A stretch of 55,500 nucleotides of DNA from Chlorobiota bacterium (GTDB lineage: Bacteria; Bacteroidota; Ignavibacteria; Kapaibacteriales; UBA961), in the NCBI GenBank assembly GCA_014191195.1, contig BJGZ01000016.1, positions 1 through 55,500 on the forward strand. The letters are read 5' to 3'. A model generated the notes under the pieces. It did no database searches and had not been told where the DNA came from. It was given only the letters and a program-made list of their open reading frames with translations. A program made the position numbers and the translations under genes. This document shows, piece by piece, positions 5,552 through 42,164 of the stretch; position 1 is the stretch's first letter, and the number at the start of each line of letters is the position of its first letter.

Positions 5552-5569
5552 ATAAAACTCCGTTTGGAT

Positions 5570-6799
5570 TTATTCTTTTTCAATTGTGATTGAAGAACCC
5601 GATGATAATTTTTCTATAGGAGATATTATTAAACTTGTACCAGGCAATAATCCTTGTTTTACTTCGGTAAACTCACCAAAAATTGCTCCTGTTTTAATTA
5701 TCTGTTCAGACGCCTTAGACCCAGCACCTACAATAAATACTGTCTTTTTTCCATTTACAGTAAGAATTGAAGAAGTAGGGATTAATATTTTAGCAGGTTC
5801 TTGTACTTCATTTGCAATGTTTTGTCTTAAAAAATTAACTTTGGCACCCATTTCTGGTAATACTCTTTCATCAATCTCATTAAAACGAATTTTTATTTGA
5901 ACGGTACCTTTACCTCTATCTGCTGTAGGAATAATTTTATTTACATATCCTTTGTATTTTTTATCTGCAATTGCACTTACAGAAATTTCAACAGGCATAT
6001 TTGGTAATATTTTAGATAATGAAGATTCTGATACATCAGCTTCTACTTCAAGTGAACTCATATTCGCTAAAGTAACTACAGCCCCTCTAGCGCCAGCAGC
6101 TGCACCAAGTGCAGTAATAACTTCTCCAACATTTGCATTTTTGCTTAACACTGTACCATCGAAAGGAGCCCTGATTACTGTATTTTCTACCAATACTTGG
6201 GCAGAAGCAATAGCAGCTTGTTGGACATTAATTTGGGCTTGTGCAACAGAAACTTGAGCCAAGGCTCTTTTCCATCTTCCTTGTGAGGCATCAAATTCTG
6301 ATTGAGTTCCAACTTTATTCTGCAATAAAGATTGCTGTCTTAAATAAGCAGAATGTGCATCTTCTAATTCTGCTTGTGCATTTGCAACAGAAGCATTAAG
6401 AACAGCTATTTGAGCTTTTTGTTGATTCAAATTAGCCTGAACATCATTGCTTTCAATGCGTCCAATTATCATCCCTTTTTTTACTTTATCACCTTCAATA
6501 ACAAAAAGTTCTTGTAGTCGGCCTGTAGCTTTAGAGGAAATTGCAGCTTTTACTTGGGCCACTACATAACCTTGTCCAGTCAATACAGCATCTTGTCCTA
6601 AACCAGAACTTTCGATTATTTGTATGGTTTTTACTCTGATTGCAGTGTTTTGCCTTGCATACCAAAAGCCAATCATGATCAAAAGAAATAATCCGATATA
6701 GATATATTTTTTATTACCATTTGACGATGTTTTTATATCACGATTGATCTTTAATGCAGAGAGATCTGCAGATTTTGCTTCTATCGACATAGTATTCAA
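5570..6799 (-). CDS. periplasmic adaptor (membrane fusion) protein, MacA/HlyD family
   Basis: 409 residues. A cytoplasmic N-tail is followed by one inner-membrane span (about residues 31-48), a barrel-sandwich/lipoyl half, an Ala- and Gln-rich alpha-helical hairpin (about 120-190, segment NLNQQKAQIAVLNAS and following), the second lipoyl half (VIRAPFDGTV), then beta-barrel and membrane-proximal domains. Such adaptors link an inner-membrane ABC transporter to an outer-membrane channel. The adjacent ATPase and two permeases make a MacAB-like exporter; no TolC-type gene is nearby. ATG 6790 (MSIEAK) is an equally possible start. Confidence 0.88.
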   Translation of the reverse strand: MNTMSIEAKSADLSALKINRDIKTSSNGNKKYIYIGLFLLIMIGFWYARQNTAIRVKTIQIIESSGLGQDAVLTGQGYVVAQVKAAISSKATGRLQELFVIEGDKVKKGMIIGRIESNDVQANLNQQKAQIAVLNASVANAQAELEDAHSAYLRQQSLLQNKVGTQSEFDASQGRWKRALAQVSVAQAQINVQQAAIASAQVLVENTVIRAPFDGTVLSKNANVGEVITALGAAAGARGAVVTLANMSSLEVEADVSESSLSKILPNMPVEISVSAIADKKYKGYVNKIIPTADRGKGTVQIKIRFNEIDERVLPEMGAKVNFLRQNIANEVQEPAKILIPTSSILTVNGKKTVFIVGAGSKASEQIIKTGAIFGEFTEVKQGLLPGTSLIISPIEKLSSGSSITIEKE

Positions 6800-6827
6800 T
6801 GAGAAAATTAAGTGAAAGAATGCATAC

Positions 6828-7358
6828 TTATCTTGTTTCCGTATTTCTTGATTTTACAAGCATTGGAAACAATGCTGCAACGGTTGTATAGAGTGTAGAT
6901 GCGATACCATAACGAAAGAAAAATCCGCTAAAATTTATCTCAGTTGGGCGTAAGTAGAAAAAGAAGTAAATGATATTATGGATAAATGCACAGATAATAA
7001 CTGCAATGATAAATTTTAAAGAGCCTAAAGTCAGCTCATTATTTTTTTCTTTAAAAAAATATCCTGCAGCAAATCCAGCAAATGTTTTTGCAAGTGCATT
7101 TGTGCCCAGTACGTCTAAGGAGACAATATCGAATAATAATCCACAACCAAAACCAGCTAATATACCTATAAATTGTCCTTCACGAATTGCAATCCAAACC
7201 ACTAAAATGATGAGCAAATCAGGAGTAATGCCTCCTACAGAAACCAAGTTTAGAAACACCACATGGACTACAGATAGTAATAATGCGATGATTCCATAAA
7301 TGACAAATCGTAAATTATACCAGGTTTGCGCTATCGATTGTTCTGCATAATCAGCCAT
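6828..7358 (-). CDS. mreD: rod shape-determining protein MreD
   Basis: 176 residues and almost entirely hydrophobic, with five to six predicted spans. The run GGITPDLLIILVVWIA followed by a Gly-rich GFGCGLLFDI and the later Asn-Ala-Leu-Ala-Lys segment are typical of MreD. The family is an inner-membrane partner of MreC in the elongasome that directs lateral wall synthesis. It starts 4 nt after mreC. No mreB, pbp2 or rodA follows; instead the exporter adaptor comes 28 nt downstream. Confidence 0.85.
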   Translation of the reverse strand: MADYAEQSIAQTWYNLRFVIYGIIALLLSVVHVVFLNLVSVGGITPDLLIILVVWIAIREGQFIGILAGFGCGLLFDIVSLDVLGTNALAKTFAGFAAGYFFKEKNNELTLGSLKFIIAVIICAFIHNIIYFFFYLRPTEINFSGFFFRYGIASTLYTTVAALFPMLVKSRNTETR

Positions 7359-7362
7359 AGTA

Positions 7363-8229
7363 CTACTTTGTTTTTTTAAGTGATTTTATGATTGGTATTC
7401 CACGTTGAGAGCTATCTTTTTCTAAATTAAATCTTTCATTGTCTGGTAATTGCTTAATAACAAATACTTGTTCTAATGTTGTGAAATTCACAGAAGGTTT
7501 AACAATTACTTTCCTGAACAACGCAATACCATCGTCTCGAGTTTCCGACACTGTTCCAATTCTAATATTAGCAGGAAATCTATTGCTATAATTAGACGTT
7601 AGTACTTCGTCACCAACTTGAATATCAAAAGATTTTGGAATATTTTTCATAGACAGGGCTTCATCTCCATCCCAAACCAGAATTCCGTCGATGCGTGTTC
7701 TTTGAACTTTACCTGCCAATCGGCTTTCCCTATTAATTAGCAATCGAACCACAGAAAAATTGGTACTAGTTCCAACAATTAATCCTACTAATCCTGCATC
7801 TGTCACTACTGGCATTCCAACTTGAATTCCTTCGTTTTCACCACGATTTATTGTAGCAAAATTGCGGACTTCTGTAGTGGTTTTGCCAATTATGTCTGAT
7901 GTAATTAATTTTTTGTCATGCTCTTTCTTAAATTCAAGCATTTTTCGGAGTTTATCATTTTCTACAATTGCTTGTCTAATCTTGGCTCTTTCATCAGAGA
8001 GTTGAAGATTTAACTCCCTTAAAGCTGCATTCTCATTTTTAAGAGCTAAAGGATTTGGTATCCATGAAAATGCTGTTTGCATCCATCCTATTCCACCCAC
8101 AACTATAGACCTAAAGCCCCCTAATTGCGAGATATTTCCAAAAGTCATTAATACCATGGCTACTATTGTTAAAGTAACCAAAGCAATAAATTCTTTGAAA
8201 CGAATGATAAATTCAAGTAGACGATACAT
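7363..8229 (-). CDS. mreC: rod shape-determining protein MreC
   Basis: 288 residues. It has a short cytoplasmic tail, one membrane span (about residues 13-33), a coiled-coil segment (about 60-100, rich in E, L and R) and the beta-rich periplasmic MreC domain. The domain holds the family-typical patterns GENEGIQVGMPVV and DAGLVGLIVG. MreC bridges MreB/RodA and PBP2 in the cell-elongation machinery. The gene follows the exonuclease-UvrC fusion by 23 nt and is directly followed by mreD, so the pair is cotranscribed. Confidence 0.92.
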   Translation of the reverse strand: MYRLLEFIIRFKEFIALVTLTIVAMVLMTFGNISQLGGFRSIVVGGIGWMQTAFSWIPNPLALKNENAALRELNLQLSDERAKIRQAIVENDKLRKMLEFKKEHDKKLITSDIIGKTTTEVRNFATINRGENEGIQVGMPVVTDAGLVGLIVGTSTNFSVVRLLINRESRLAGKVQRTRIDGILVWDGDEALSMKNIPKSFDIQVGDEVLTSNYSNRFPANIRIGTVSETRDDGIALFRKVIVKPSVNFTTLEQVFVIKQLPDNERFNLEKDSSQRGIPIIKSLKKTK

Positions 8230-8252
8230 GCTGCAATATTTCAGTAAAATAA

Positions 8253-10016
8253 TTAAGGTGAATAGTGTTGATCAATATATTCTAATTGACTGTATTCACC
8301 TGGTTTATGTATAGTTTTTGTATGAGAATGAGAAATCACTGATACAAATTCTTGTATCAATTGGTCTAAATCTTTATGTTCAGCATATAGAATATGAGCT
8401 GAGTTATTATGCCTATGTATCCACGAAGTGATTATTTGAATTTCGTCTACTTCAAATGGATCCATTCGATGTACTCTATCATCAATTGGGATAGTAGTAT
8501 CAGCATAATATAACTCTTCTATCTTCATCAATAATTTTGTTGTGTCAGCTTTACGGCCAATAATTTCTTGATGAGCTAATTTGCCACTTCGAATAAAGAA
8601 CACCTCAACTGATTTGTCTCTTGGATTTGCCTCGACAATTAATATGGTATTATTATGAGTTACAGACGTAGAAACTTCAGCACGGCGATCAAATAGTCTT
8701 TTTAATTCATTCAATCTATTTCTAAGCATTGCAGCAGACTCAAATCTTAATGCTTCTGCTTCAGATTGCATTTCTTCATCAAGCTTTGTTAAAAGCCCTC
8801 CGGCTGATCCACTCAAAAATCTTCGTGCTCTTTCTACTTCTTTTGCATATTCTTCTTTGCTTTGTATTAAAGCACAAGGAGCTCCACATCGTTTAATTTG
8901 ATAATAAAAACAAGGCTGTTTTTCTATCGAAGGTTGCAATACTTCTGTACATTGCCTTAAACCAAATGATTTATAAACGGTTTCAACAACTTCACGGGCA
9001 AGTGTTCCACTTCGAAATGGTCCAAAATATTCTGCTCCGTCTGTTCCAATTGATGAACTCCATTCTAATCTTGGAAATTCGTCTTGAGAGGATAATCGTA
9101 AGAATGGAAAACGTCTGAACTTTTTACTTGCAGTATTAAATTGTGGCTTTACTCTTTTTATTTCTTTTGATTCTAATAATAAAGCAGCTAATTCAGTTCC
9201 AGTTGTTTCATATTCTACATTAAAAACTTGTTTTACCATTCTTGCAATTTTTTGCGGATGCTGAGCCCCTGGCTGAAAATAGCCACGAACCCTTTCTCTT
9301 AAGCTTTTTGCTTTTCCGATATAAAGGATATTGCCATCTTTATCCAACATTCTATATACACCAGGTTCTTCGGGTAACGATTTAAGCGTAGTTTCAACTC
9401 GTTTTATTGCTGCTGGAGAAGTATGAAATTGTTCTATTCTTTTATTCTGAAATCGTAATAATTCATCTACTGATTCTATATCATGTTCATTTTCTAGTAT
9501 TTCTAAAAAATGAAGAAGAAACAAAGCCGTTGCTTTAGCATCACCTAAAGCACGATGCCTGTTTTCTATCATAATATTAAAATGTGAAGCAACAGCACCC
9601 ACATTTTTTTTAAGATGCAATGGTAAGATTCGTCTTGCAAGTTTGCATGTACATAATTGTGGAATGAGCGGAATATTAAGTCTTAGCCTTCTAAAACTAT
9701 TTTGAACAAAATTCCAATCAAAACTGACATTATGCGCCGCAAAAATTGCATTTGGCATAGATAAAAACTCTAATACTTGTGGCATTATCTCTTTATCTTC
9801 AGGGGCTGTGGCTGTCATTACATTGCTAATACCCGTCATTTGTTCAATAAATGGCGGTATAAACTGATGTGGATTAATTAATTCAGAAAACTCTCTGACA
9901 ATTTCTCCACCTTGTATAACAACACATGCGATTTCAATAATTCTATGATGTTCAGGGTCATGCCCTGTTGTTTCAACATCTATTACTACAATTGGGGATT
10001 CCCAATATGATTTCAT
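8253..10016 (-). CDS. DEDDh exonuclease fused to UvrC-like GIY-YIG nuclease
   Basis: 587 residues with two nuclease modules. Residues 1 to about 185 are a DnaQ/PolC-epsilon exonuclease: IDVETTG carries Asp13 and Glu15, and HRALGDAKA carries the His and last Asp of the DEDDh set. From about residue 213 a UvrC N-terminal GIY-YIG domain follows (PGVYRML, LYIGKAKSLRERV, then Glu in LLLESKE), then a four-Cys cluster like that of UvrC and a UVR helical motif (about 410-450). The C-terminal RNase-H-like incision domain and HhH of UvrC are absent. It resembles the epsilon-Cho/UvrC fusions known in several phyla. It probably makes only the 3' type of incision, with trimming, in DNA repair. Substrate and partners are inferred. 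Confidence 0.9.
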   Translation of the reverse strand: MKSYWESPIVVIDVETTGHDPEHHRIIEIACVVIQGGEIVREFSELINPHQFIPPFIEQMTGISNVMTATAPEDKEIMPQVLEFLSMPNAIFAAHNVSFDWNFVQNSFRRLRLNIPLIPQLCTCKLARRILPLHLKKNVGAVASHFNIMIENRHRALGDAKATALFLLHFLEILENEHDIESVDELLRFQNKRIEQFHTSPAAIKRVETTLKSLPEEPGVYRMLDKDGNILYIGKAKSLRERVRGYFQPGAQHPQKIARMVKQVFNVEYETTGTELAALLLESKEIKRVKPQFNTASKKFRRFPFLRLSSQDEFPRLEWSSSIGTDGAEYFGPFRSGTLAREVVETVYKSFGLRQCTEVLQPSIEKQPCFYYQIKRCGAPCALIQSKEEYAKEVERARRFLSGSAGGLLTKLDEEMQSEAEALRFESAAMLRNRLNELKRLFDRRAEVSTSVTHNNTILIVEANPRDKSVEVFFIRSGKLAHQEIIGRKADTTKLLMKIEELYYADTTIPIDDRVHRMDPFEVDEIQIITSWIHRHNNSAHILYAEHKDLDQLIQEFVSVISHSHTKTIHKPGEYSQLEYIDQHYSP

Positions 10017-10060
10017 TATAATGTCTTTCCGGGGATAAACCCCATATATGCGTATTTTCT

Positions 10061-11632
10061 TTATCTATTAATGATAATTGGATAAGATACGGATTGATTT
10101 TGTAATTGTATAGCAAGAATATACATGCCATTTGATAATGAATTCCAAGTATAGTTCATACTATCATTATTTACCATACTAGGACTAATTTGTTCACTAG
10201 AAATCGAATATAATGTAGCAGACTGCACTGCACTTGGTGCAGATAGGTGTAATGATTGCTGATATGATGAAACAGAAATATTCTGTGAAATTCCAATATC
10301 GTTTTGTACATCACTGATTGTAATTGTTCCGGTTCCTGATAAAGCGATGTTATTACTAGAACTTGCATTATTGATTGTAGAGCATTGAAAATCTGTAGAT
10401 CTTTTGCCTACATTTGAAGGCTTAAATACTATTTCTAATGTGAAGGTTTTGCCTGGATCTATAACAATTTTTCCAGGTGAATTTTTTATATAAAAGTCTA
10501 AAGAGTCAGATCCACTCATTGTATATCTAGTAATTGATACAGGCAAATCACCGGCATTAGAAAGAATAACTGCCAAAATAGATTCTTTACCAACTTCTGT
10601 TTCATTAAATTCTAATGACCTTGTACTTGTTGATAAAAGACCTACTGGTGAAGGATTAGACCGAAATACTCCAGTTATAGTAGCTGCCAATAATCTACCA
10701 TTTGAATCTAGTGCTAATGAATTAATCACAGTGCTTTTCATACCTGTAATAACTTGCGCCCATGTTTTTCCATTATCCTTTGATATATATCCACCTTCTC
10801 CATTTACTCCAACAAATAAAGTACCATCAGAGGTACCTATCACAGATAAAACCGGAATAATGCTACGTCCATCACCAAAGTATGGAATCCAATCAATGCC
10901 ATTAATAGTTTTAAATGCACCGTATTGTGAACCAGCAGCTAAACTACCATCAGGCATAATTCCAAAATCTTTGGTTGACAAAAAATATACCCCTGCGTCT
11001 GCATCCTTCCATGTAGCACCATCATCTGTAGATCTAAATATGCCCTCTCCTTCAATTGCTGCATATAATCCAGTAATATGTTTTTGTACCGCATTTGCAA
11101 TACCTTTAGCTAAACCTTTGTTAGATGAAAACCATGTAGCACCGTCATCTGTAGATTTATATATTCCTAAATCAGAAGCAACAAATATAGGTCCTTCTTC
11201 AGAGGCATAAATTTTACTAGCTCTGATATTTGGATAACCTAATTTTTCAAATTTTGCTCCATTATCAGAAGAGCCAAGCATCCAACTTGAATCTATTCCA
11301 CCAATAGTTCTATTCATTACAGCAATAATTTTTCCGGTTTTTGTAATACAGAAACTAAGGCAATGTGAATACCAAGAAGTACCAACACTTTGCGTCCATG
11401 TTTTACCAGTATCTACAGACCTATAAATACCTGCACCATCGCTAGTACCTGCTAAATATGCACCATCCTTTGCTACAAGAATGCAATTTGTAGGAACTAC
11501 TGCCCCAGCATCAAATGGAAACTTAGAAGTTTGAGACCAGTAAATTTGCTGTGCATATATTGAATTGGATAATCCATAACCAAATAGCAAGGCAAAACAG
11601 AAGAAAGAACAAACAGAAAAAAGGAATTTCAT
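10061..11632 (-). CDS. T9SS surface protein with BNR/VPS10-like repeats and ASH domain
   Basis: 523 residues. A signal peptide (about 1-27, ending YAQQ) is followed by a chain of sialidase-type BNR/Asp-box repeats, seen as repeated DxGKTW, DDGATW and DNGKTW motifs between about residues 65 and 300; these form a beta-propeller. A choice-of-anchor D/ASH-like Ig domain follows (about 335-430: EFNETEVGKES, FKPSNVGKR). The last ~75 residues end in NGMYILAIQ plus a basic tail, like a T9SS type A sorting domain. It is likely secreted and attached to the cell surface. Ligand unknown. It is first in the minus-strand run and 44 nt before the exonuclease-UvrC gene. Confidence 0.82.
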   Translation of the reverse strand: MKFLFSVCSFFCFALLFGYGLSNSIYAQQIYWSQTSKFPFDAGAVVPTNCILVAKDGAYLAGTSDGAGIYRSVDTGKTWTQSVGTSWYSHCLSFCITKTGKIIAVMNRTIGGIDSSWMLGSSDNGAKFEKLGYPNIRASKIYASEEGPIFVASDLGIYKSTDDGATWFSSNKGLAKGIANAVQKHITGLYAAIEGEGIFRSTDDGATWKDADAGVYFLSTKDFGIMPDGSLAAGSQYGAFKTINGIDWIPYFGDGRSIIPVLSVIGTSDGTLFVGVNGEGGYISKDNGKTWAQVITGMKSTVINSLALDSNGRLLAATITGVFRSNPSPVGLLSTSTRSLEFNETEVGKESILAVILSNAGDLPVSITRYTMSGSDSLDFYIKNSPGKIVIDPGKTFTLEIVFKPSNVGKRSTDFQCSTINNASSSNNIALSGTGTITISDVQNDIGISQNISVSSYQQSLHLSAPSAVQSATLYSISSEQISPSMVNNDSMNYTWNSLSNGMYILAIQLQNQSVSYPIIINR

Positions 11633-11840
11633 AAATATCTCAAGTGGATGAAGTCAAAACAAAATCAAGTAAATGATTACAAAGCACATAAAGCATGAAA
11701 TAGAGAATAATAAGAAAAGGTTAATTTCTTGGATGAACCAAAAAATATACTGGCTGCATAAGTATATTTTTATTCATCAAAAATAAGAAAGAATAGCTTT
11801 ATTATTTTCCTTTTTTATAGTAAAAGTGAAGTTTTAGTGT

Positions 11841-12494
11841 TTATTCTTCTACTTTAAGTCCTCTTGCTTTGTAAAAGTTAATATATAATTGATTTTGGAG
11901 TGAATTCTTGGGTTCTAAACAATTCACAATCGTTATGGATCCTAAACTTCTATTTCTGATATCAAGATATTCTGCAATATGGTTCATTCGTTTTTTTAAG
12001 CTATTTGTATCGATGTTTGGTGCAGATCCAAGAATATACAATCTTGTTGGTAATTTGTCTGATGTTATAATATCTACCACCTTTGAATGTAATAGATTTT
12101 GAATCTCAATATCAGCTTCAACAGATCTTTTGGATGCTGTATCAATAAGTCTTCTAAATTCATCGGCTGATGTACAATGTTTGTATACTGCGGTTCCACC
12201 AATCACCATTTTGATTCTTATAGAATCTGCGCCAATTTCTTTTTTTATTGCTCTGGAAATTGAATCTGCTCGATTGGCAGAAATTGGAGATAAAACCATC
12301 GCATACACGGCTCGAATTTTAGGTATTTTTCTTTTGGCTAATACTTCACTTTTTTTTGGTAATTGTCTGTATATTAATCCTAGAATTCCCCCGGATAATC
12401 CTAATACAAAAAGAAATATATAGATGGCTTTCCATCCCCATTTTGGTTTTGGTATATATTGTCCATGCTCTTCAGGTTCAGGGTTTTGATTCAT
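11841..12494 (-). CDS. unknown protein with one membrane span
   Basis: The ORF is open from 12536, but ATG 12494 (MNQNPEPEE) is preferred because a TAnnTTTG promoter box at 12534-12541 would otherwise lie at the longest start. The 217-residue product has a Pro-rich cytoplasmic tail, one span at about residues 23-42, then a soluble domain of about 170 residues with many Lys, Arg and Ile and regular alpha/beta alternation (segments such as IKKEIGADSIRIKMVIGG). No family was recognised. It stands alone, divergent from the thioesterase gene. Confidence 0.6.
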   Translation of the reverse strand: MNQNPEPEEHGQYIPKPKWGWKAIYIFLFVLGLSGGILGLIYRQLPKKSEVLAKRKIPKIRAVYAMVLSPISANRADSISRAIKKEIGADSIRIKMVIGGTAVYKHCTSADEFRRLIDTASKRSVEADIEIQNLLHSKVVDIITSDKLPTRLYILGSAPNIDTNSLKKRMNHIAEYLDIRNRSLGSITIVNCLEPKNSLQNQLYINFYKARGLKVEE

Positions 12495-12533
12495 AATTGA
12501 TAATATTTGTATAGTACATTGATGTTTTATGTG

Positions 12534-12568
12534 CAAATCTAATCAAATCGCAAACAGCATTTTACAAA
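12534..12568 (-). promoter_or_regulatory. possible Bacteroidota-type promoter for the 11841-12494 gene
   Basis: On the minus strand TAGATTTG (12541-12534) matches the -7 box TAnnTTTG, and TTTG (12568-12565) could be the -33 element with a 23-nt spacer, at the long end for this promoter class. Transcription would start near 12527, some 30 nt before ATG 12494. Pattern match only. Confidence 0.35.
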
Positions 12569-12595
12569 CACAATTTCTGCTTTTAAAAACAAGTA

Positions 12596-13093
12596 ATGTA
12601 TTTTTGCTTACTAATCCATGGATACAATGTGAATACAAAAACATTAAAACAACCAATAGAAATTCCATCTATAGCCATTAAAGTACAAGAAAGAGTACGA
12701 TGGAGTGATTTGGACGCTGCCGGAATATTATATTTCGGAAATTATATCAGGCTTTTTGAAATCGGAGAAACAGAACTATTTCGTGCTGCTGGACATCCAT
12801 ATTCTAATAAACAATTTGATGAATTAGGAATTTGGATGCTTAGAGTTCAGTTTAATTGTACATTTCTTAGTTCAGGGTATATTGATGATTTGCTATCAAT
12901 TTATGTGTGGATTTCCCATATAGGAGGAGCATCTTTGGATATACAGTTTGTAGTATGTAGAGATTCTACAATGTTAGGACACGGTATATGTACTATTGTT
13001 TCTACAGATAGACAAACCAAAAAAGCTAAAAGAATTCCAGAAAGTCTTAGAAATGGTTTTAACCCTTTTATTTTTAATCATGATATTCAATGA
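12596..13093 (+). CDS. acyl-CoA thioesterase, 4HBT/YbgC-like hotdog fold
   Basis: Up to 165 residues. The core from about residue 30 is a hotdog-fold 4-hydroxybenzoyl-CoA/YbgC-type thioesterase: the motif RWSDLDAAGILYFGNY carries the catalytic Asp, followed by the central helix YIRLFEIGETELFRA and strands ending in a SLDIQF segment. In Bacteroidota such enzymes include DHNA-CoA thioesterases of menaquinone synthesis, and menA is in this window, but that link is speculative. The first ~30 residues are not conserved-looking; GTG 12629 is an alternative start. Its stop overlaps the next ATG (ATGA), so the two genes are coupled. Confidence 0.8.
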   Translation: MYFCLLIHGYNVNTKTLKQPIEIPSIAIKVQERVRWSDLDAAGILYFGNYIRLFEIGETELFRAAGHPYSNKQFDELGIWMLRVQFNCTFLSSGYIDDLLSIYVWISHIGGASLDIQFVVCRDSTMLGHGICTIVSTDRQTKKAKRIPESLRNGFNPFIFNHDIQ

Positions 13094-33382: not shown

Positions 33383-34648
33383 ATGATTCCTACATTTGAT
33401 CAATCAGTCCTTTCCTATTCATTGCCAGATGAAAACATAGCTCTGTTCCCTAAGGAACAAAGAGATGAAAGTAAATTATTAATCGTGAATCAACATGAAA
33501 TTAATCCATTTACTGATTCTGTCTTTCATGAAATAGATTCCTTTTTACCAGAACATTCGCTGTTAATAGTGAATGCTTCTAAAGTAATAAAAGCAAGAAT
33601 ATATGCTCATAAACAAACAGGCGGTAAAGCTGAATTATTATTAATAGAACCTATTCAAGGAAGTGCAGCCGAAGCCCTTACACAAGAAAAAGAGAGTATA
33701 TGGGAATGTATGATTGGAGGAAAAAATCTTACTCCAGGTACAATTCTTGAATGTATGGCCAAACATTATACATTAAAAGCAGAAATACTTGAAAGAAATA
33801 ATACACAAGGAATTGTAAGATTTCAATGGGATGAACCTATTACTTTGGGTGCTTTATTAGAAGATATTGGGACAATACCTTTACCTCCTTATCTACATAG
33901 AAAAGCCGAAGATTCAGACACAATTCGTTATCAAACAATTTATGCAAAAGAAAAAGGGTCTGTTGCAGCACCAACAGCAGGTTTGCATATAACCGAAAAT
34001 GTTATTCAAAAGTTGAAGAAGAAACAAATCAATATGGTAGATATTACTTTGCATGTTGGCTTGGGAACATTTAAACCATATGAAGCAGATACACCAGAAG
34101 ATTTTTTAATGCATACAGAGAAAATTCTCATTCCCAGAGAGGTTATTGAACATTGTAGAGAGTTTTTTCTTAATCCAGATCGTGGCTTATTTATTTGTGT
34201 TGGGACAACATCCTGCAGGACAATGGAATCTGTTTTTTGGTTTGGTATTCAATTATTAAATCCATCATCACCAATGTGGAATCAATCTTATATTTCTATG
34301 CAACAATGGACGCCATATTCACTTGTAGATAAGAATGTTAATTCTGCTGATGTATTTGCAATCTTACTTACATGGATGGATAGATATAATCTTACAATAA
34401 TAGAAGGAGAAACCCAATTAATGATAATTCCTGGTTATTCATTTGCTATAACAGAAGCTCTTATTACTAATTTCCATCAGCCAAAAAGCACATTGCTTTT
34501 TCTTGTTTCAGCATTTTTAGGTGTTAATGTATGGAAACAAAGCTATGAATATGCTCTTGAGAATAACTATAGATTTCTTAGTTATGGGGATTCATCATTA
34601 TTGCTAAAAGGGAAGATATTGCATGCCGACTCTAAACCCGTACTTTAA
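33383..34648 (+). CDS. queA: tRNA S-adenosylmethionine ribosyltransferase-isomerase QueA
   Basis: 421 residues, longer than the ~345 of E. coli QueA; the extra length lies mainly in the middle and C-terminal part, as in many Bacteroidota. Conserved blocks are NIALFPKEQRDESKLL, the YQTIYAKEKGSVAAPTAGLHIT motif, ITLHVGLGTFKP, VGTTSCRTMES, ITNFHQPKSTLLFLVSAFLG and YGDSSLLL. It transfers the ribosyl part of SAM to preQ1 at tRNA position 34, giving epoxyqueuosine. It starts 12 nt after the nrdJ terminator. Its last 17 nt overlap the converging YhcH-like gene. Confidence 0.96.
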   Translation: MIPTFDQSVLSYSLPDENIALFPKEQRDESKLLIVNQHEINPFTDSVFHEIDSFLPEHSLLIVNASKVIKARIYAHKQTGGKAELLLIEPIQGSAAEALTQEKESIWECMIGGKNLTPGTILECMAKHYTLKAEILERNNTQGIVRFQWDEPITLGALLEDIGTIPLPPYLHRKAEDSDTIRYQTIYAKEKGSVAAPTAGLHITENVIQKLKKKQINMVDITLHVGLGTFKPYEADTPEDFLMHTEKILIPREVIEHCREFFLNPDRGLFICVGTTSCRTMESVFWFGIQLLNPSSPMWNQSYISMQQWTPYSLVDKNVNSADVFAILLTWMDRYNLTIIEGETQLMIIPGYSFAITEALITNFHQPKSTLLFLVSAFLGVNVWKQSYEYALENNYRFLSYGDSSLLLKGKILHADSKPVL

Positions 34649-35078
34649 ATATTACTTTCTTCACATATTTGGAAGGTGTGCGTGGCGCATGAGCATCGTG
34701 AGGAAAAAAAATAGCAAATTGATTAGAATGTAATGTATAATGTTCTAAAGGTTCATCAGAAAAAAACATAATATCAGCTTCTTCTGAATATTCCTTACAA
34801 ACAGCATTACATACATCTATGTGTTTCCATCCAAATGAAAAACTGCCTTCTATAACACATTGAATATCTATATATTTTTTATGTGCTTCTAATGTACACT
34901 TAACTTCAGGCATATGCACTTGATCTTCAATGATCATATATAATCGATCTTTCTCAATTATATGTTTTCCATTTGGAAGATTCCTATACATATTAGAATT
35001 CAATACTTCAATAACTTTACTGAATTCTGGATGTAAACTTGAATAGTGATTAAGAGTATCTAATGAATCAATAATCAT
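34632..35078 (-). CDS. YhcH/YjgK/YiaL (DUF386) cupin
   Basis: 148 residues, the family length. HKKYIDIQCVIEG (His and Glu or Gln ligands), the FFSDEPLEHYTL segment and IFFPHDAHAP (His ligands) are the DUF386 hallmarks. E. coli relatives YhcH and TabA act in sialic acid use or toxin-antitoxin-linked processes, possibly as sugar isomerases or anomerases. No sialic acid gene is near. It is the last gene of the multicopper oxidase operon, and its ATG overlaps the DUF1566 stop by 4 nt. Whether it works with the operon or is simply read through is unknown. Confidence 0.88.
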   Translation of the reverse strand: MIIDSLDTLNHYSSLHPEFSKVIEVLNSNMYRNLPNGKHIIEKDRLYMIIEDQVHMPEVKCTLEAHKKYIDIQCVIEGSFSFGWKHIDVCNAVCKEYSEEADIMFFSDEPLEHYTLHSNQFAIFFPHDAHAPRTPSKYVKKVIFKVRV

Positions 35079-36259
35079 CTTGCTGTATGGATATATGAAG
35101 TTCTATAAGTATGTCCATTAATTATAAAAGACATTATATAGCATCCTTCAGGATTTTGGGGAATATCTAGTGAATACACGTGATCTTGGTTTTCATAAAG
35201 CGTATGCCCTGTTATATTATAACAAGACATCGATTCAATTGGATAATTACTCTCAATATGTACTGTATTATTATTCCAATATAATCTATATGGCAATACG
35301 CTTTCAGCTTCTACTGCTTGTAATGAAGTCTTAGCAGTTCTAACTAAAACTATCTTCAATTTATCAGTTTTTAAGGCATATGTAGTTATACCAAATCTTG
35401 TATCTAAGTACCACGCTTTTGTAGTTTGATTGGGAAGAGAAGTTGATGACCAATATTTTCCTACAGAAATTTGACCATTAAACATTGGATTAATTGATGG
35501 ATTTGAATAATCTTCATCATTTAATGACTGTAATTCTTTGATATTCGGTAAGCGCCAGTCATTTACTCCGGCAACATTTGTTTCTTCTGCAATTTGCAAA
35601 GCAGATTCCCAATTTAGTGAATCTTGCAAAGGTTGTTGTTTCCACATTAATCCACTTAGATTATCTGTAATTGTTCCATCAGCATTCTGTATACATCTAG
35701 ATTGATATTCTTTTGGGGGAAGTATATCTCGCACTGCTCTTACATGAAAACGCTTAGTACCACCAGCACTTATTGTTTCTTTTTTTACATGATTTCCAAC
35801 ACCTCCGCCGGCATTAGTAACCCAAGCTTTTGTATTGTCATTAATTTGGTTTTGTGAACTCCACCAATATTCAGCAGCTGTTTTTGGAAATATAGCATCT
35901 GGAAGTGCAGGATTTGGTTTGTCAAGATGTAATAAACTGAATAGTTCATGACAATTTGGTAAACGCCAATCTGAAAATCCACCTAAAGTTAAAGTATCAC
36001 AATATAATCCTGCAGACTCATATGTCATTTCTCCACCATCGGTTCTTTGCCATTGTAATCCAGTTACTGTATCAATTGCAGTTAGATTGTCTTGTATGAT
36101 AAAACCAGGCGAATTAATTGCATAATCTGAATCTTCACCAAAAGTGCTAGTATAGTCTTTTGTCTGCCAAGTATCAGGAATATTCTTCATGGTTTTTTTA
36201 ACCAATTGAGCATCAGATTCATAAAACCATAGAAATAGAAACAAAAAGAATATCTTCAT
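35075..36259 (-). CDS. DUF1566 (Lcl C-terminal) repeat protein with T9SS-like tail
   Basis: The frame opens at 36301 inside the upstream gene; ATG 36259 lies 2 nt after the upstream stop and starts a clean signal peptide (KIFFLFLFLWFYESDAQ). The 394-residue product has two DUF1566/Lcl_C domains, about residues 55-185 and 190-310. Each has a GLxWxx start, a DWRLPNxxEL motif and a YWWSSQ or YWSST motif. The last ~75 residues, with Gly-Cys-Tyr-Ile in the middle, look like a divergent T9SS sorting domain. These domains are C-lectin-like in fold and of unknown ligand. Surface exposure is inferred. Confidence 0.82.
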   Translation of the reverse strand: MKIFFLFLFLWFYESDAQLVKKTMKNIPDTWQTKDYTSTFGEDSDYAINSPGFIIQDNLTAIDTVTGLQWQRTDGGEMTYESAGLYCDTLTLGGFSDWRLPNCHELFSLLHLDKPNPALPDAIFPKTAAEYWWSSQNQINDNTKAWVTNAGGGVGNHVKKETISAGGTKRFHVRAVRDILPPKEYQSRCIQNADGTITDNLSGLMWKQQPLQDSLNWESALQIAEETNVAGVNDWRLPNIKELQSLNDEDYSNPSINPMFNGQISVGKYWSSTSLPNQTTKAWYLDTRFGITTYALKTDKLKIVLVRTAKTSLQAVEAESVLPYRLYWNNNTVHIESNYPIESMSCYNITGHTLYENQDHVYSLDIPQNPEGCYIMSFIINGHTYRTSYIHTAR

Positions 36260-36261
36260 TA

Positions 36262-36813
36262 TCAACCTAATGACCTCGTTATAGCCCAGAATAAGCCACA
36301 ACTTGCAATAATTAAAGAAAGTGGTTTTTTTATATAAGAATTATACCAAGGGGCATCTAAAAATGGCTTTGATAGAATAAAATATAAGATAACTATCAAA
36401 CTAGCTTGTGCTAACTCGACACCAATATTGAATCCTGCCAGAACTGTTATTATATCTTGCTTCTGCATTCCAATATCTGCCAATGCACCCGCAAAACCAA
36501 TTCCATGCAAAAGACCAAATAAAAATATTATCAAAAGCCTTATCGAAAAAGTAAACCCACCTAGAATATTTTCTAATCCAGCGATAAAAATTGATATTGC
36601 TATACCAATTTCTATCAATTGAGTATTTGGTATAATTAGCTGAATGGCAGTTAAACCAAGTGTTAATGAATGCGCAATTGTAAAAATTGAACATTGAAGT
36701 ATAGCAGTTTTAATACGAGAATTATATAAAAAAAGGGCAATCATAAATAAAATATGATCGTAACCTAAAGGGAATACATGCTCGAAACCTTTAATCAAAA
36801 AGTTAAAAAACAT
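36262..36813 (-). CDS. HupE/UreJ-family membrane protein
   Basis: 183 residues with six predicted spans. The motif FPLGYDHILFMIALFLYN, then FTIAHSLTLGLTA and the ISIFIAGLENIL segment are the conserved His/Asp/Glu-bearing blocks of HupE/UreJ-type proteins. Relatives act as nickel permeases or accessory proteins for hydrogenase and urease; many Bacteroidota members have no such neighbours. Here it sits between the YHYH protein (8 nt) and the DUF1566 protein (2 nt) in an operon with a copper oxidase, so a metal transport role, perhaps copper, is an inference. Confidence 0.82.
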   Translation of the reverse strand: MFFNFLIKGFEHVFPLGYDHILFMIALFLYNSRIKTAILQCSIFTIAHSLTLGLTAIQLIIPNTQLIEIGIAISIFIAGLENILGGFTFSIRLLIIFLFGLLHGIGFAGALADIGMQKQDIITVLAGFNIGVELAQASLIVILYFILSKPFLDAPWYNSYIKKPLSLIIASCGLFWAITRSLG

Positions 36814-36821
36814 AAGAAATA

Positions 36822-38417
36822 CTATGGTTTTACTATGATACTTTTAATCATATTGCCCGGCTGAATTGATAGAAAATATAATCCAAATGGTAATGACTGA
36901 GTAGAAAGTAGATTTTGTCCAGTTAAACTTTGGACAGCTAATTTTCCATCAACAGTAAATAAGCTTAACTGCATAGCACTTAACATTGAAACATCTGATA
37001 GGCTTTGGACTAATATTCTATCGGAAAACTGTTGAATATCATATTGTTCTTTAGATTGGTCTTCTTGTACTGAACTTGTAGGCAAACTGCAAATTGTTTG
37101 TCCTTTATATTGATTTGTAGTTGTTCCTGTTGGAGATATAAAATTATATGTATAATTACCAGCTTGCGTCCAACTATAATCCACTTTATATGTTTGATTG
37201 TTTAATGTATATGAAAGTGTATAACCATTATTCATTTGATTAGGTATCATACCTGTTATAGTAGCACCTTTTAATGGTGTTAATGCTGGGCGACATCCTT
37301 TTGCAGAAGATTGGGGTATAATTTGATATGTTGAATCCTCTGTTACTTCTCCTGCGAATGATGCAATTGTATAAGGAACAGTCAAAGTACCATGATAATG
37401 ATATACACCATTAGTGCCTGCATGTCCATGATGAATATCCAGAGTTTTCATATCTGAACCATCTGGTTCTTTATCTCCATATATTGCAAAACCATCAAAA
37501 GCATATGCAATTGGTAAACTTTGTTTTGTAAAGCTATATAAATGTGTTGGTGCTATATGATAATGATAGTCGTCTGCTCTTCCGCTATGTCCTCCCCAAT
37601 TATCTAATTGTCCGTCAGCATAAGCATCTACACCTGTATTAGTATATGGATTAAATATTGCAATGCCATTTACAGCAATAGCAATTCCACCTCGCGTACA
37701 ATGTTTTTGATCAACAGGAACTGAATTAACAGCCATTATAGGATTTAATGGAATGCTCCATGCATTATTACCTATATAACATTGAGGAATAGGAACCTGT
37801 TGCTGCCAAGCAGTAATACCTTTCATCATTTCATGAGTTGTTGCTAGACCTAATGATCCAACTCTGAAATATGTTTTGTCCCATGATGTAACAACATGTT
37901 CTTTAAACGGAGTAAATGCAGAATCAATTGTCGAAGGATCAGTTTGAACACTTTGCAAAGCAGGCATTCCATCCTTGAAACTATATGTCATTGATACCAA
38001 TGCTATGCATGCAAAATACCAAGCATATACTCTTTGATATCTAAATAATATCAGCAGTAAGATAATTATACCAAGAAGCACAAAGATACTATATGTATAA
38101 AATGGCGACTTCGGTAATGAATGAATGTTCGGTATTGAATATTGAGGTACATTAATCTGAAGAATATCCTTATATCTTGCATCGGTATACAATCTATCTT
38201 TTTTAGAAAGCTCAGAATATGGAAATGATACAATATGATTATGTTCTTGCTCTATATACACTTTATTGTCTTTTAGCATATAAAAAGACCCATGGATCTG
38301 TCTATTACCGATCTGCCAATCTCTATCAAAAAGAGCTTTTGTATTCCCACTATGAGAGAAAGCCATAATAGGAGTTAAAAGAAATAAAAAGATGATATAG
38401 ATGAGGTGCTTTTTCAT
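36822..38417 (-). CDS. YHYH-domain protein with SHD1-like part, two membrane spans and T9SS-like tail
   Basis: 531 residues. A signal peptide (1-22) leads into a small domain (about 30-90: DRDWQIGNRQIHGSFYML ... PYSELSKKDR) that looks like SHD1. Two membrane spans follow (about 107-125 and 128-146), then a YHYH domain (about 215-350) with two YHYH motifs (284-287 and 339-342), a conserved GIAIAVNGIAIFNPY block and many His. The end (about 450-531) with GLYFLSI and a short basic tail resembles a T9SS sorting domain. YHYH domains are of unknown function; the His-rich motifs suggest metal binding. Inner-membrane spans together with a surface-sorting tail are unusual. Confidence 0.82.
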   Translation of the reverse strand: MKKHLIYIIFLFLLTPIMAFSHSGNTKALFDRDWQIGNRQIHGSFYMLKDNKVYIEQEHNHIVSFPYSELSKKDRLYTDARYKDILQINVPQYSIPNIHSLPKSPFYTYSIFVLLGIIILLLILFRYQRVYAWYFACIALVSMTYSFKDGMPALQSVQTDPSTIDSAFTPFKEHVVTSWDKTYFRVGSLGLATTHEMMKGITAWQQQVPIPQCYIGNNAWSIPLNPIMAVNSVPVDQKHCTRGGIAIAVNGIAIFNPYTNTGVDAYADGQLDNWGGHSGRADDYHYHIAPTHLYSFTKQSLPIAYAFDGFAIYGDKEPDGSDMKTLDIHHGHAGTNGVYHYHGTLTVPYTIASFAGEVTEDSTYQIIPQSSAKGCRPALTPLKGATITGMIPNQMNNGYTLSYTLNNQTYKVDYSWTQAGNYTYNFISPTGTTTNQYKGQTICSLPTSSVQEDQSKEQYDIQQFSDRILVQSLSDVSMLSAMQLSLFTVDGKLAVQSLTGQNLLSTQSLPFGLYFLSIQPGNMIKSIIVKP

Positions 38418-38446
38418 AATCTTTCGCTTAATAATGAATAAAGATT

Positions 38447-39646
38447 TTAATGAATGAAGATTGTGGATGTGAATACATAAGAATTAGGATCTTTTATAGA
38501 AATACAATAGACACCCAAAGGAAGAGCTGAATATAAAGGAAGCTGATATGGAATACCTGCACTTAACTCAGCATTATGTATAGTACCGATACAATTTCCT
38601 AATAATGAAAAAAGTTGCAGAGTTGCATTATGAATATCTTTATGAGAAATTAAAGAAATACTCTTATTATCTACAGAAATTATAGGTTGTGATTCTAAGG
38701 ATTCGAAAACTGAAGAAGGTTTAGAGCCAACAGTTTTTCTTGCCAAAACCAAATTATCAACAACTAAATTTGATGTCCAAATAAAAGAACTTGATGTCCA
38801 AAATGAAGTGAAATTTGTCCACGCAGGAAAATTCACTCCAACAGTTTCGGGAGTATAGAGATAAGCTTTTGGCCAGTTTGAATCATCAAATGCAGGTGAT
38901 TGCCAATTATTTGGTATTGGATAATGGACGGCATAGCATGAATCAGCACAAGGAATATTTCTTGCTAATTGTTTGCAATATCTGGTATTATTTGATAATT
39001 CGATGATTGAGTCTGGGGACATCAAAGGGCTGATATAATACACTTGAGCTTTCCATGAAGTATCAGATATTGTACCATCACTAAAGCGAGCAATAAACCC
39101 AGCATCTCCAGCATGATAAAGATTCCCATTATTATTTTCTGTTCCAAGACCAGAATTTTCTTCCCAATCAACAAGTTTTACAGCAATTGTATATGGTTTT
39201 TTTACTTTAAATCGTAATAAACAGGAGTTAAATGGAGTAAATGGCACAGGGTCTGCACCAATAAGAATTCCATTTATATATACTTCACAATAATTATCGC
39301 TTAGCACATATCCAGTAATAATATCACCATCATCATCTATTACTTTGATGGGTATATTAGTAATATTAACAGCATTTATATTTGATGGAGTAATATTATT
39401 GCATTGATTATAGAAATCAGAAAGATATGGTCCTTGTAAAAAGACAGTTTCTGCAGGAACAATCCATTCTTTACTATCAGAAGAAGTACTTTTTCCAACA
39501 ACAGAAGGACGTGATCCAGAACAACTAGAATATATGTTCTGCTCAATTACAGTTGCCTTGCCTCTTGATACAGAACCAGTAAAAGATTGCGCAATAGTGA
39601 AATAAGAGGATGATAAAAGAACTATAAGTAGTAAAAAGAATTTCAT
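38447..39646 (-). CDS. T9SS exported protein, galactose-binding-like
   Basis: 399 residues. A signal peptide (1-19, ending TIAQ) is followed by an early Ser/Cys-containing segment (YSSCSGSRPSVVG) and a jelly-roll-like region: DTSWKAQVYYISP and later WQSPAFDDSNWPKAYLY. The FDDSxW pattern is typical of galactose-binding-like domains that close beta-sandwiches in surface proteins. The C-terminal ~80 residues (ATLQLFSLLGNCIG, LPLGVYCISI) form a T9SS-type tail. It begins 3 nt after the redoxin gene, so the genes are coupled. Several Cys residues (for example CKQLARNIPCADSCYAVH) could form disulfides or bind a metal. Function unknown. Confidence 0.75.
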   Translation of the reverse strand: MKFFLLLIVLLSSSYFTIAQSFTGSVSRGKATVIEQNIYSSCSGSRPSVVGKSTSSDSKEWIVPAETVFLQGPYLSDFYNQCNNITPSNINAVNITNIPIKVIDDDGDIITGYVLSDNYCEVYINGILIGADPVPFTPFNSCLLRFKVKKPYTIAVKLVDWEENSGLGTENNNGNLYHAGDAGFIARFSDGTISDTSWKAQVYYISPLMSPDSIIELSNNTRYCKQLARNIPCADSCYAVHYPIPNNWQSPAFDDSNWPKAYLYTPETVGVNFPAWTNFTSFWTSSSFIWTSNLVVDNLVLARKTVGSKPSSVFESLESQPIISVDNKSISLISHKDIHNATLQLFSLLGNCIGTIHNAELSAGIPYQLPLYSALPLGVYCISIKDPNSYVFTSTIFIH

Positions 39647-39649
39647 TTG

Positions 39650-40267
39650 TTAATGTCTATAAATGATTTTGCATCCAAATGACTCAATAATTGAGTCTTT
39701 GATTGGACGCTGTAATAAGAGCGAATCGGCTGCTTCTTTAAGATACTTTCTGGCTATTTCTGGACTTTTACCATTATCATCAATGATACCTTTATACACT
39801 ATCTTCCAAGAAGAATGTCTTTTTTGAAGTAGATACACTTGTGGAGTAAAATCTGCAGAGAATGCCTTTGCAATAGATTGATCAGCGTCCTGAAGATAAG
39901 GGAAAAGAAAATTATCTTTAAGAGCTTTTGTTTTCATATTAATCAATGTCTCATCTTCATAAAGAATTGAATCCATTGGGTTTATGGCAATCAGCAAAAC
40001 ACCTTTAGGAAGATATTCTTGATAAAATGCATTTAATCGATCTGTATATAAATTTGCAAATGGACAATGATTGCAAGTAAAAACCACCGCTATTGCTGCA
40101 TATTCATCTTTGCCGTGCAATGAAAACAATGTACCTAGAGCAGTATTAGCTGCAAAAGGTTTTATTACTCTATTAATAATTGATTGTTTTTCCTTTGCAT
40201 TGATTTCACTTATTGACAATGAAATCAGGATAAAAAAAATCATATACACATAAAAGAGTTTTTTCAT
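39650..40267 (-). CDS. exported thioredoxin-fold redoxin with CNHCP motif
   Basis: 205 residues. A signal peptide (about 1-24, ending INAK) is followed by an AhpC/TSA-type thioredoxin fold. The motif FTCNHCPFANLY holds the CxxC pair, followed by GVLLIAINPMDS and the cis-Pro region FTPQVYLLQ; DDNGKSPE continues the family pattern seen in exported redoxins of Bacteroidota. The CNHC pair lies where thioredoxins have CGPC. Between the multicopper oxidase and Cys-containing surface proteins, it may keep a copper site or disulfides in the right redox state. That role is inferred from position. Confidence 0.87.
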   Translation of the reverse strand: MKKLFYVYMIFFILISLSISEINAKEKQSIINRVIKPFAANTALGTLFSLHGKDEYAAIAVVFTCNHCPFANLYTDRLNAFYQEYLPKGVLLIAINPMDSILYEDETLINMKTKALKDNFLFPYLQDADQSIAKAFSADFTPQVYLLQKRHSSWKIVYKGIIDDNGKSPEIARKYLKEAADSLLLQRPIKDSIIESFGCKIIYRH

Positions 40268-40296
40268 TGTCAGGAGATTATAGATATAAAAAACTT

Positions 40297-41991
40297 TTAT
40301 TTACTGAATTGTTTTGTAATAGTTGTTTTTGTAGCTGCATCCATTATCTGCATATAATACATGCCTTTAGGAAGATGTGCTATAGAAATACCTTTATGAA
40401 TTTCTGGTTGAGGAAGCATCATCACTGATTTTCCTACACTATTTACAATTGTTATATAGTAGATTTCAACGCCTTTATTTTCCATAAAAATCACATCTGA
40501 AGCAGGATTAGGAAATAGGGTGTATTGTGATTCATCAGGCATATTATCGATAATTGAACTTGGATTATTTACAACAAATTGTCCCATCATACCACCATCT
40601 TCATGATTAGAAAAATGACAGTGATACATAAAAGGGTGAATTGGATCTGCATAATCATCAAATTTTGCAATAAAAGAAGCGTTTTCGTTTCTTGGTAAAT
40701 AAAGGACATCTTTCCATCCTTGCTCATGTAATCCAACTGCATTAGTATTTCCATTTCTGGCAACTAACTTAAATTGAACATCATGAATATGAAAAGTATG
40801 ACCAAATACATTGCTATTTGTGATTGTCCATTTTTCTATCGCATTTAAATTGACGGTATTATCGATCCTATTAATGTCAAAAATTTTGTCATTAAAATTA
40901 AATGGAGTAGGATTACCTGGAACACCACCTTTTACATTGATTGAACGGTTAACGGTGGCTTCTGCTGAATTAATAAATTGATTTGAAATCAAAGAAGTAG
41001 GAATAGATGTAATTGGGGAATTTGTTGATTTCCCAATATTTATGCGAAGGCAGTTAAAATCTTTATTATTAAGTAAGCTTCCAAAATTACCTTGAGCAGC
41101 TGGTTCGCCGCCAGGGAATCCAAAAGGTTGATTAGCATTATATGACATTAAATTTATGCTAGACCCAACATTGTCATTGCTTAAATCTACCAAAATTTCA
41201 TATCGTTCTCCAACAGCAACTAGTAATTTGCTTACTTGAACAGGTTTATCTAATAAACCACCATCATTTGCAATAATGTAGAACTTTCTATTGTCACTAA
41301 AGCCAAAATTATATGCCCTTTCAACTTCTGCATTAAGAAGTCTTAAACGGACTATTTGCTTTGGCAATGTAATTTCTGGGTCTCTTGTTCCATTTACTAA
41401 TAGATAATCACCATATGCTACATTTTGTACAACAAATTGATTAGCAGTATTATATCTTCTGCTTGTTAGCATAAGAGGAATATCATCAATTCCATATTTT
41501 CTAGGTAATGCTAATGCTGATTCTTCTTGGTCATTAACAATAATAAATCCACCAATTCCTTTAGTCAAATGCTCTAGTGTCATTTCGTGTAAATGTGGAT
41601 GATACCAATATGTTGCAGCATTATTAGTTACTTTCCAATATGGTTGCCACAGTGTTCCTGGAGGTATAACTTGATGAGGGCCACCATCCATTACTGCTGG
41701 TAAATGCATTCCATGCCAATGAATTGTAGTACTATCATTAAGTTTATTAAGTACATTCATGTGTACAGTATCACCCTTATTTATAAATATGGTTGGACCC
41801 CAAAACTGACTATTATTTATCCCACCTGTTATTGTTTGATTACCGGTTGCTCTTAACTGAGCAAATGTATCTTTAATAGTTAATGTGATATTGCTTCCCG
41901 ATAATGTGTCTGGAATCCATAGTGGATTATATGTTTGCGCAGAAAGAAAGGCACTACATAAACAAGAAAAAAGGAAAAAAATAGATTTCAT
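40297..41991 (-). CDS. multicopper oxidase with T9SS sorting domain
   Basis: 564 residues. A signal peptide (1-19) is followed by three cupredoxin domains with all copper ligands: HWHG (His91, His93), YHPHLH (His131, His133), HTFHIHD, and YHCHFSNHEDGGM (His457, Cys458, His459, His463, axial Met468). This is the CueO/CotA/bilirubin-oxidase type. A sorting domain of about 75 residues starting near LFPNPASD and ending in a Lys-rich tail would place it outside the cell. Natural substrate unknown: Cu(I), Mn(II) or phenolics are possible. It lacks the Met-rich insert of CueO. It heads a seven-gene operon. Confidence 0.95.
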   Translation of the reverse strand: MKSIFFLFSCLCSAFLSAQTYNPLWIPDTLSGSNITLTIKDTFAQLRATGNQTITGGINNSQFWGPTIFINKGDTVHMNVLNKLNDSTTIHWHGMHLPAVMDGGPHQVIPPGTLWQPYWKVTNNAATYWYHPHLHEMTLEHLTKGIGGFIIVNDQEESALALPRKYGIDDIPLMLTSRRYNTANQFVVQNVAYGDYLLVNGTRDPEITLPKQIVRLRLLNAEVERAYNFGFSDNRKFYIIANDGGLLDKPVQVSKLLVAVGERYEILVDLSNDNVGSSINLMSYNANQPFGFPGGEPAAQGNFGSLLNNKDFNCLRINIGKSTNSPITSIPTSLISNQFINSAEATVNRSINVKGGVPGNPTPFNFNDKIFDINRIDNTVNLNAIEKWTITNSNVFGHTFHIHDVQFKLVARNGNTNAVGLHEQGWKDVLYLPRNENASFIAKFDDYADPIHPFMYHCHFSNHEDGGMMGQFVVNNPSSIIDNMPDESQYTLFPNPASDVIFMENKGVEIYYITIVNSVGKSVMMLPQPEIHKGISIAHLPKGMYYMQIMDAATKTTITKQFSK

Positions 41992-42164
41992 TATTGTACT
42001 GAGTTTATAAATAAAATATGTGATTTACGTGTAAAGAAGTAACAATTCTGATTAAGAATAGTTTCCAAAAAAAAAAAACATGCAAAATATGTTAATAATT
42101 ATTAAATAATAGGTGCTAAAGGTACTTAATACTTCAACTCATATTTGCTTAAATATTAATAGAA

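Follow-up and report, generated by a model that had tools for sequence, protein, structure and literature searches.

The window, a 55,500-nucleotide stretch of Chlorobiota bacterium DNA (GenBank assembly GCA_014191195.1, contig BJGZ01000016.1, positions 1 to 55,500), carries on its minus strand six adjacent genes (35075-41991) that constitute one form of a conserved, mosaic operon centred on a YHYH protein (PF14240). The remaining five genes encode a multicopper oxidase, a redoxin, a galactose-binding-like protein (GBL), a HupE/UreJ_2 permease (HupE) and a double Lcl_C/DUF1566 protein; a core of YHYH, GBL, DUF1566 and HupE/UreJ_2 recurs across Bacteroidota. The conserved YHYH operon, with a histidine predicted at the tip of its central protein and a metal permease beside it, suggests a cell-envelope system that captures a transition metal and handles its redox chemistry. 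Copper is the most likely metal, and the chance that this interpretation is correct is put somewhat short of even. To our knowledge, copper uptake in Bacteroidota is poorly known. Because YHYH combines a conserved N-terminal histidine, a predicted membrane tether, an adjoining permease and copper-gene neighbourhoods, its function can be recast as a specific, testable hypothesis of metal capture that concerns many freshwater, marine and soil bacteria.

Conservation of the gene set

The genes for the oxidase, redoxin, GBL, YHYH, HupE and Lcl_C/DUF1566 proteins stand in the same order in a genome of the window's genus (G004), and another genome of the genus (G003) has this order minus HupE. HupE_UreJ_2 was not found anywhere in the G003 genome, which keeps the other operon genes, and the permease is therefore dispensable. 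In other families of the window's order, only YHYH and Lcl_C/DUF1566 remain together, or YHYH is found alone. Among the best 80 YHYH loci obtained when 84,980 species genomes were scanned with aligned YHYH sequences, Lcl_C/DUF1566 is present in 36, GBL in 35, HupE in 19, the redoxin in four and the oxidase in three, although one of these three oxidases is a short fragment. Where a Bacteroidota-type locus offers 2.5 kb or more of downstream sequence, Lcl_C/DUF1566 is found in 24/29 cases, HupE in 15/29 and GBL in 12/29. As these gene sets recur in the genus, the order and the best 80 loci, the operon is regarded as real, conserved and mosaic.

The original prediction, drawn from the sequence of the window, proposed a seven-gene system that also included a YhcH gene, and named beforehand the scattering of the genes in related genomes as an observation that would speak against it. 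The neighbourhood comparison did not bear this out: the genes are co-conserved in relatives. The system itself, however, is reduced to a mosaic set of six in which HupE is optional: YhcH occurs in none of the best 80 YHYH loci (0/80) and was rejected as a member.

The YHYH protein

The most telling feature of the YHYH protein (36822..38417, minus strand), missed by the original prediction, is its N-terminal histidine. The protein gives a partial match to PF14240 (residues 220-316; 45.1 bits, cut-off 25). In an alignment of 55 relatives, all matching PF14240 at E <= 0.05, the signal peptide ends in Ala, Ser or Gly followed immediately by His in 53 of the 55 sequences, while the residues after this His vary. 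Under a simple signal-peptide rule, such a junction is present in 43/49 YHYH proteins versus 24/370 other exported proteins. In the window, the signal peptide is predicted to comprise residues 1-21, with His22 (hereafter His1) as the predicted mature N-terminus (38352..38417, minus strand). N-terminal histidines are known to bind copper in lytic polysaccharide monooxygenases and CopC.

The N-terminal domain of the protein resembles SHD1 (2hbp, root-mean-square deviation 1.4, TMt 0.73; Z 8.0). In the AlphaFold2 model, two helices (residues 105-127 and 129-149) follow, which, together with the hydropathy, predict a two-helix transmembrane hairpin (residues 105-149; 37971..38105, minus strand); the hydropathy of the hairpin is conserved among Bacteroidota relatives. 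The proposal of a single machine outside the inner membrane, with the oxidase at the surface, does not suit YHYH, given this conserved predicted hairpin. The YHYH domain itself (residues about 163-440; 37098..37931, minus strand) contains invariant residues, among them D272, H277, H285, H287, D308 and H342. In a search for fold relatives of the YHYH core, Foldseek found nothing at E<=0.001, and the sorting tail described below dominated the VIA-align rows; Foldseek hits to receptors and WD40 proteins, with E-values near 0.02, were regarded as chance similarities.

The sole mechanistic proposal found for PF14240 is the prediction of a Zn hydrolase (Iyer et al. 2021, PMC7824862), and the His triad (H277, H285 and H287) and several Asp residues of the predicted site are invariant in YHYH. 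The phage-tail and bacterial YHYH domain of that study (PMC7824862) belongs to the same family and has the same conserved His and Asp residues; there it was proposed to be a tail-associated Zn hydrolase, whereas the protein described here has His1 and a predicted membrane hairpin, and its family is found next to copper genes. In the literature searched, no paper on YHYH together with a multicopper oxidase was found, and those with YHYH and copper were unrelated by title. Only three YHYH records come from plasmids, all of them from Rhodobacterales, with PEBP neighbours and a His after the signal peptide.

The HupE/UreJ_2 permease and the anglerases

The HupE/UreJ_2 permease (36262..36813, minus strand; 183 aa) matches PF13795 with 123.6 bits (cut-off 24.5). 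It has no N-terminal extracytoplasmic domain, and its gene lies 8 nt downstream of YHYH. The protein contains only four His residues (12, 20, 48 and 103), all of which are conserved.

Franco Cairo et al. 2025 (PMC12537917) described two kinds of His1 domain, the anglerases Ang-1 and Ang-2, that form one protein with a HupE/UreJ_2 permease. They bind Cu2+ with a Kd of about 60-75 nM and were proposed to capture and import metal; the main text of that paper contains no mention of YHYH (PMC12537917). The window's operon shares with them the HupE/UreJ_2 permease and an extracytoplasmic domain with a His after the signal peptide (predicted here), and metallophosphatase neighbours are common to anglerases and YHYH loci. 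In the anglerases, however, the His1 domain is an immunoglobulin-like beta-sandwich fused to the permease, whereas in the window it is SHD1-like and located on a separate upstream YHYH protein with a transmembrane hairpin of its own. Because neither the fusion nor the immunoglobulin-like domain was found, the operon is not classed as an anglerase; by analogy, its YHYH/HupE pair may work like one.

Other arrangements of the permease were also encountered. In another family of the window's order (f8; L010, L014, L015 and L016), HupE_UreJ_2 carries an N-terminal domain that starts with 'A|HPMPN' after the signal peptide, an anglerase-like fusion. In two cases only (L141 and L144), a permease with its own His1 domain is accompanied by a YHYH protein that lacks the hairpin.

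The multicopper oxidase and the redoxin

The oxidase (40297..41991, minus strand) has a signal peptide and three Cu-oxidase domains (Pfam). All four motifs that contain the type 1 and type 2/3 copper ligands of CueO are present: HWHG (91-94), WYHPHLH (129-135), HTFHIHD (398-404) and HCHFSNHEDGGMM (457-469). These motifs are common to the CueO/bacterial laccase family, and the best PDB sequence matches of the protein are CueO copper-efflux oxidases. Nevertheless, the oxidase scores 357.6 bits against the NCBIfam CueO equivalog, below the cut-off of 525, and a search for a Met-rich segment found no Met in residues 300-380; for these two reasons it is not classed as CueO. It further differs from CueO in its sorting tail and its tie to YHYH genes. 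The adjacent gene (39650..40267, minus strand) encodes an exported AhpC/TSA-type redoxin with a CNHCP motif at residue 65.

The oxidase and the redoxin accompany YHYH in four genus-level lineages: the window's genus and those represented by loci L150, L087 and L104. The last three also pair the redoxin with the oxidase. L150 comes from another genus of the window's family and contains a full-length YHYH, the oxidase, the redoxin and a sulfatase; an MPP1 label on this locus (L150:16601-17908) probably reflects a match to the sorting tail and was not used. In a tree of 27 oxidases, the YHYH-linked ones form one clade (support 100/99), which also takes in an oxidase encoded 8 kb from a YHYH gene in genome G037. 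The clade excludes two other oxidases of the same genome, two other oxidases of genome G009 and all the rest of the sample, so YHYH is linked specifically to this group of oxidases. In G037, a tyrosinase-like gene (motifs HCHQGTCM and IPYWDW; L151:1940-4830) adjoins the YHYH-clade oxidase and is also located beside a second, different multicopper oxidase.

Neighbouring genes in relatives

PF14240 is encoded by 38 genomes of the phylum sample, and in these the copper-related neighbours within 10 kb of YHYH were counted, with expectations derived from uniform placement. SCO1/SenC is present in 17/38 genomes (0.57 expected), MbnP in 7/38 (0.38 expected) and Cu-oxidase in 5/38 (0.24 expected), although these placements are not independent, owing to shared ancestry. 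SCO1 accompanies short lipoprotein YHYHs, and MbnP mostly full-length ones. Together with the oxidase clade, these neighbours provide independent evidence that strengthens the copper/redox theme of the original prediction.

MbnP/MbnH and copper-responsive operons (PMC3621798, PMC9426467) place MbnP, di-haem CCP, AhpC/TSA redoxin and SCO beside the same gene families. They centre on TonB-dependent transporters or methanobactin, whereas the window's operon centres on YHYH, GBL, DUF1566 and HupE, and in the window's genome MbnP/MbnH are encoded at another locus (C18). Locus L087 combines MbnP, CCP_MauG, the oxidase, a full-length YHYH, the redoxin, a YHYH, GBL and Lcl_C/DUF1566 in a single run.

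The C18 locus of the window's genome (L049; G000:C18:22000-40000, positions 5524-12703) contains MbnP, a di-haem CCP_MauG, two tandem full-length YHYHs and a sulfatase on one strand, and one of the two tandem proteins has extra repeat domains. A different set, a lipoprotein-type YHYH, a MORN-like protein and SCO1 on the same strand (L058, L060, L061, L063 and others), spans about 0.9 kb from YHYH to SCO1 and occurs in many Bacteroidota families.

Upstream partners were counted in the 22 YHYH loci with 4 kb of upstream sequence. Tandem metallophosphatases precede YHYH in 11-12/22 of them, and a sensor of the Metal_resist/LTXXQ type accompanied by an extracytoplasmic function (ECF) sigma factor does so in 8/22. 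Genes for sulfatases and PEBP proteins often lie near YHYH as well.

Surface-sorting tails and the GBL protein

Tails of the type IX secretion system (T9SS) had been proposed for four of the genes. In the oxidase the tail is supported by a hidden Markov model (type A sorting domain, 35.6 bits, cut-off 27), and in YHYH and GBL by fold: the T9SS-like tail of YHYH falls below the model cut-off and matches 8glk_D with Z 9.7, and that of GBL clearly resembles 8gl8_D (TM 0.85). The fourth, on the DUF1566 protein, is doubtful, its 14 bits being below the cut-off. A T9SS tail family is matched by 34/55 YHYH relatives, and since the translocon protein SprA is encoded in the genome, a T9SS exists in this organism.

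GBL (38447..39646, minus strand) has no Pfam match. Its predicted fold is a galactose-binding-like jelly roll followed by the T9SS C-terminal domain, and its AlphaFold model resembles lectins and the sugar-binding domains of GH2. The clustered Cys residues that had drawn attention earlier are not among its conserved columns. In one relative, YHYH, galactose-binding-like and PEBP domains are joined in a single protein (L147:789-3659); in another, as read by eye, GBL continues into a PEBP-like stretch within one protein (L145:12120-13271).

Proposed function and alternatives

In the favoured copper interpretation, YHYH would be exported, and cleavage of its signal peptide would leave His1 on the small SHD1-like domain; the hairpin would anchor the protein to the inner membrane, so that its His1 and YHYH domains would both lie outside the cytoplasm. 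Where the permease is present, HupE/UreJ_2 would take the metal from YHYH, so that the pair would act as a split version of a fused anglerase. The CueO-type oxidase might set the redox state of copper or free it from organic ligands, while the redoxin might keep Cys or copper sites reduced, a SCO-like role. The lectin-like GBL and the DUF1566 protein might bind glycan or another substrate outside. A more specific form of this interpretation, possible but held with less confidence, is that the genes represent an undescribed, widespread copper-acquisition operon of Bacteroidota, in which a tethered YHYH would feed copper to the separate permease and the oxidase, the redoxin and MbnP/MbnH would be interchangeable helpers. 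If true, this would be the first function for the YHYH family.

The copper interpretation draws on the His junction of the YHYH relatives, the Cu2+ binding of His1 domains fused to permeases, the two loci (L141 and L144) in which such a fusion coincides with a hairpin-less YHYH, the SCO1, MbnP and Cu-oxidase neighbours, the L087 run, the oxidase clade and the ECF/sensor genes upstream of YHYH.

Several observations weigh against this account. As the G003 operon contains no HupE, the hand-over of metal cannot be universal. SCO1 and MbnP mostly go with other YHYH subtypes without His1, and metallophosphatases, sulfatases and PEBP proteins turn up next to YHYH as often as copper genes do. Within YHYH (36825-38105), the T9SS-like surface-sorting tail conflicts with the predicted membrane tether.

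Copper defence instead of acquisition is the first alternative to be weighed, and appears unlikely. The oxidase would detoxify Cu(I), YHYH would sequester copper in the envelope, and the ECF/Metal_resist genes would act as a resistance regulator in relatives. Among solved structures, the oxidase is closest to CueO copper-efflux enzymes, which is consistent with such a role, as are the Metal_resist/LTXXQ-type proteins and ECF sigma factors that precede many relatives. However, the operons read contained no recognisable gene for a copper efflux ATPase, a resistance-nodulation-division (RND) system or CopA, and a Met-rich segment is missing from the oxidase. HupE and the anglerases are moreover proposed importers (PMC12537917), and MbnP-like genes are associated with a shortage of copper, not an excess (PMC3621798; PMC9426467).

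The phosphatase and sulfatase neighbours keep alive a surface or envelope hydrolase package, to which a low probability is assigned. YHYH would be a metal-dependent hydrolase acting with phosphatases, sulfatases, PEBP, GBL and DUF1566 proteins on phosphate or sulfate esters or on polymers, and the oxidase would be a laccase. The invariant His and Asp residues of the YHYH domain and the published Zn-site prediction (PMC7824862) agree with this, as do the frequent tandem metallophosphatases, sulfatases and PEBP proteins. It leaves unexplained the N-terminal His, the permease, and the SCO1 and MbnP neighbours, and the window's own operon contains no phosphatases.

Uptake of nickel, cobalt or another non-copper metal, with HupE in its classical role as a nickel permease, is very unlikely. 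Ni2+ is bound by Ang-1 too (PMC12537917), but the neighbours of known metal are copper proteins, and the open reading frames of the window include none recognised as a urease or hydrogenase gene. A loose neighbourhood of envelope proteins without joint function, suggested by variable partners and patchy occurrence (HupE in 10/61 near relatives, YHYH in 38/395 phylum genomes), is very unlikely in view of the shared strand and tight packing across many families, the YHYH-GBL-PEBP fusion and the single clade of YHYH-linked oxidases.

Operon layout and flanking genes

The packing of seven minus-strand open reading frames at 34632-41991 was confirmed, with gaps of 29, 3, 29, 8, 2 and -4 nt, given an ATG start of the DUF1566 gene at 36259. 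Pfam and NCBIfam assign the multicopper oxidase, the AhpC/TSA-like redoxin, YHYH, HupE_UreJ_2, the double Lcl_C/DUF1566 protein and YhcH, GBL being the remaining gene. The exported DUF1566 protein is encoded at 35075..36259 and the YhcH/YjgK/YiaL (DUF386) protein at 34632..35078 (both minus strand, Pfam); the yhcH gene is a neighbour outside the conserved system and is probably co-transcribed with the operon.

The 173-bp intergenic region 5' of the oxidase gene (41992..42164, minus strand) is the likely promoter region of the operon; a promoter-motif scan was uninformative (37 sites versus 49.5 expected) and established no motif there. Within the operon, no convincing minus-strand terminator was found (six hits versus 3.4 expected), the sole candidate noted being a weak A/T-rich stem inside HupE.

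The convergent queA gene (33383-34648) overlaps the yhcH gene at its 3' end by 17 nt (34632-34648). It encodes a protein of 421 aa with two stretches matching queA models, which seems to carry an insertion.

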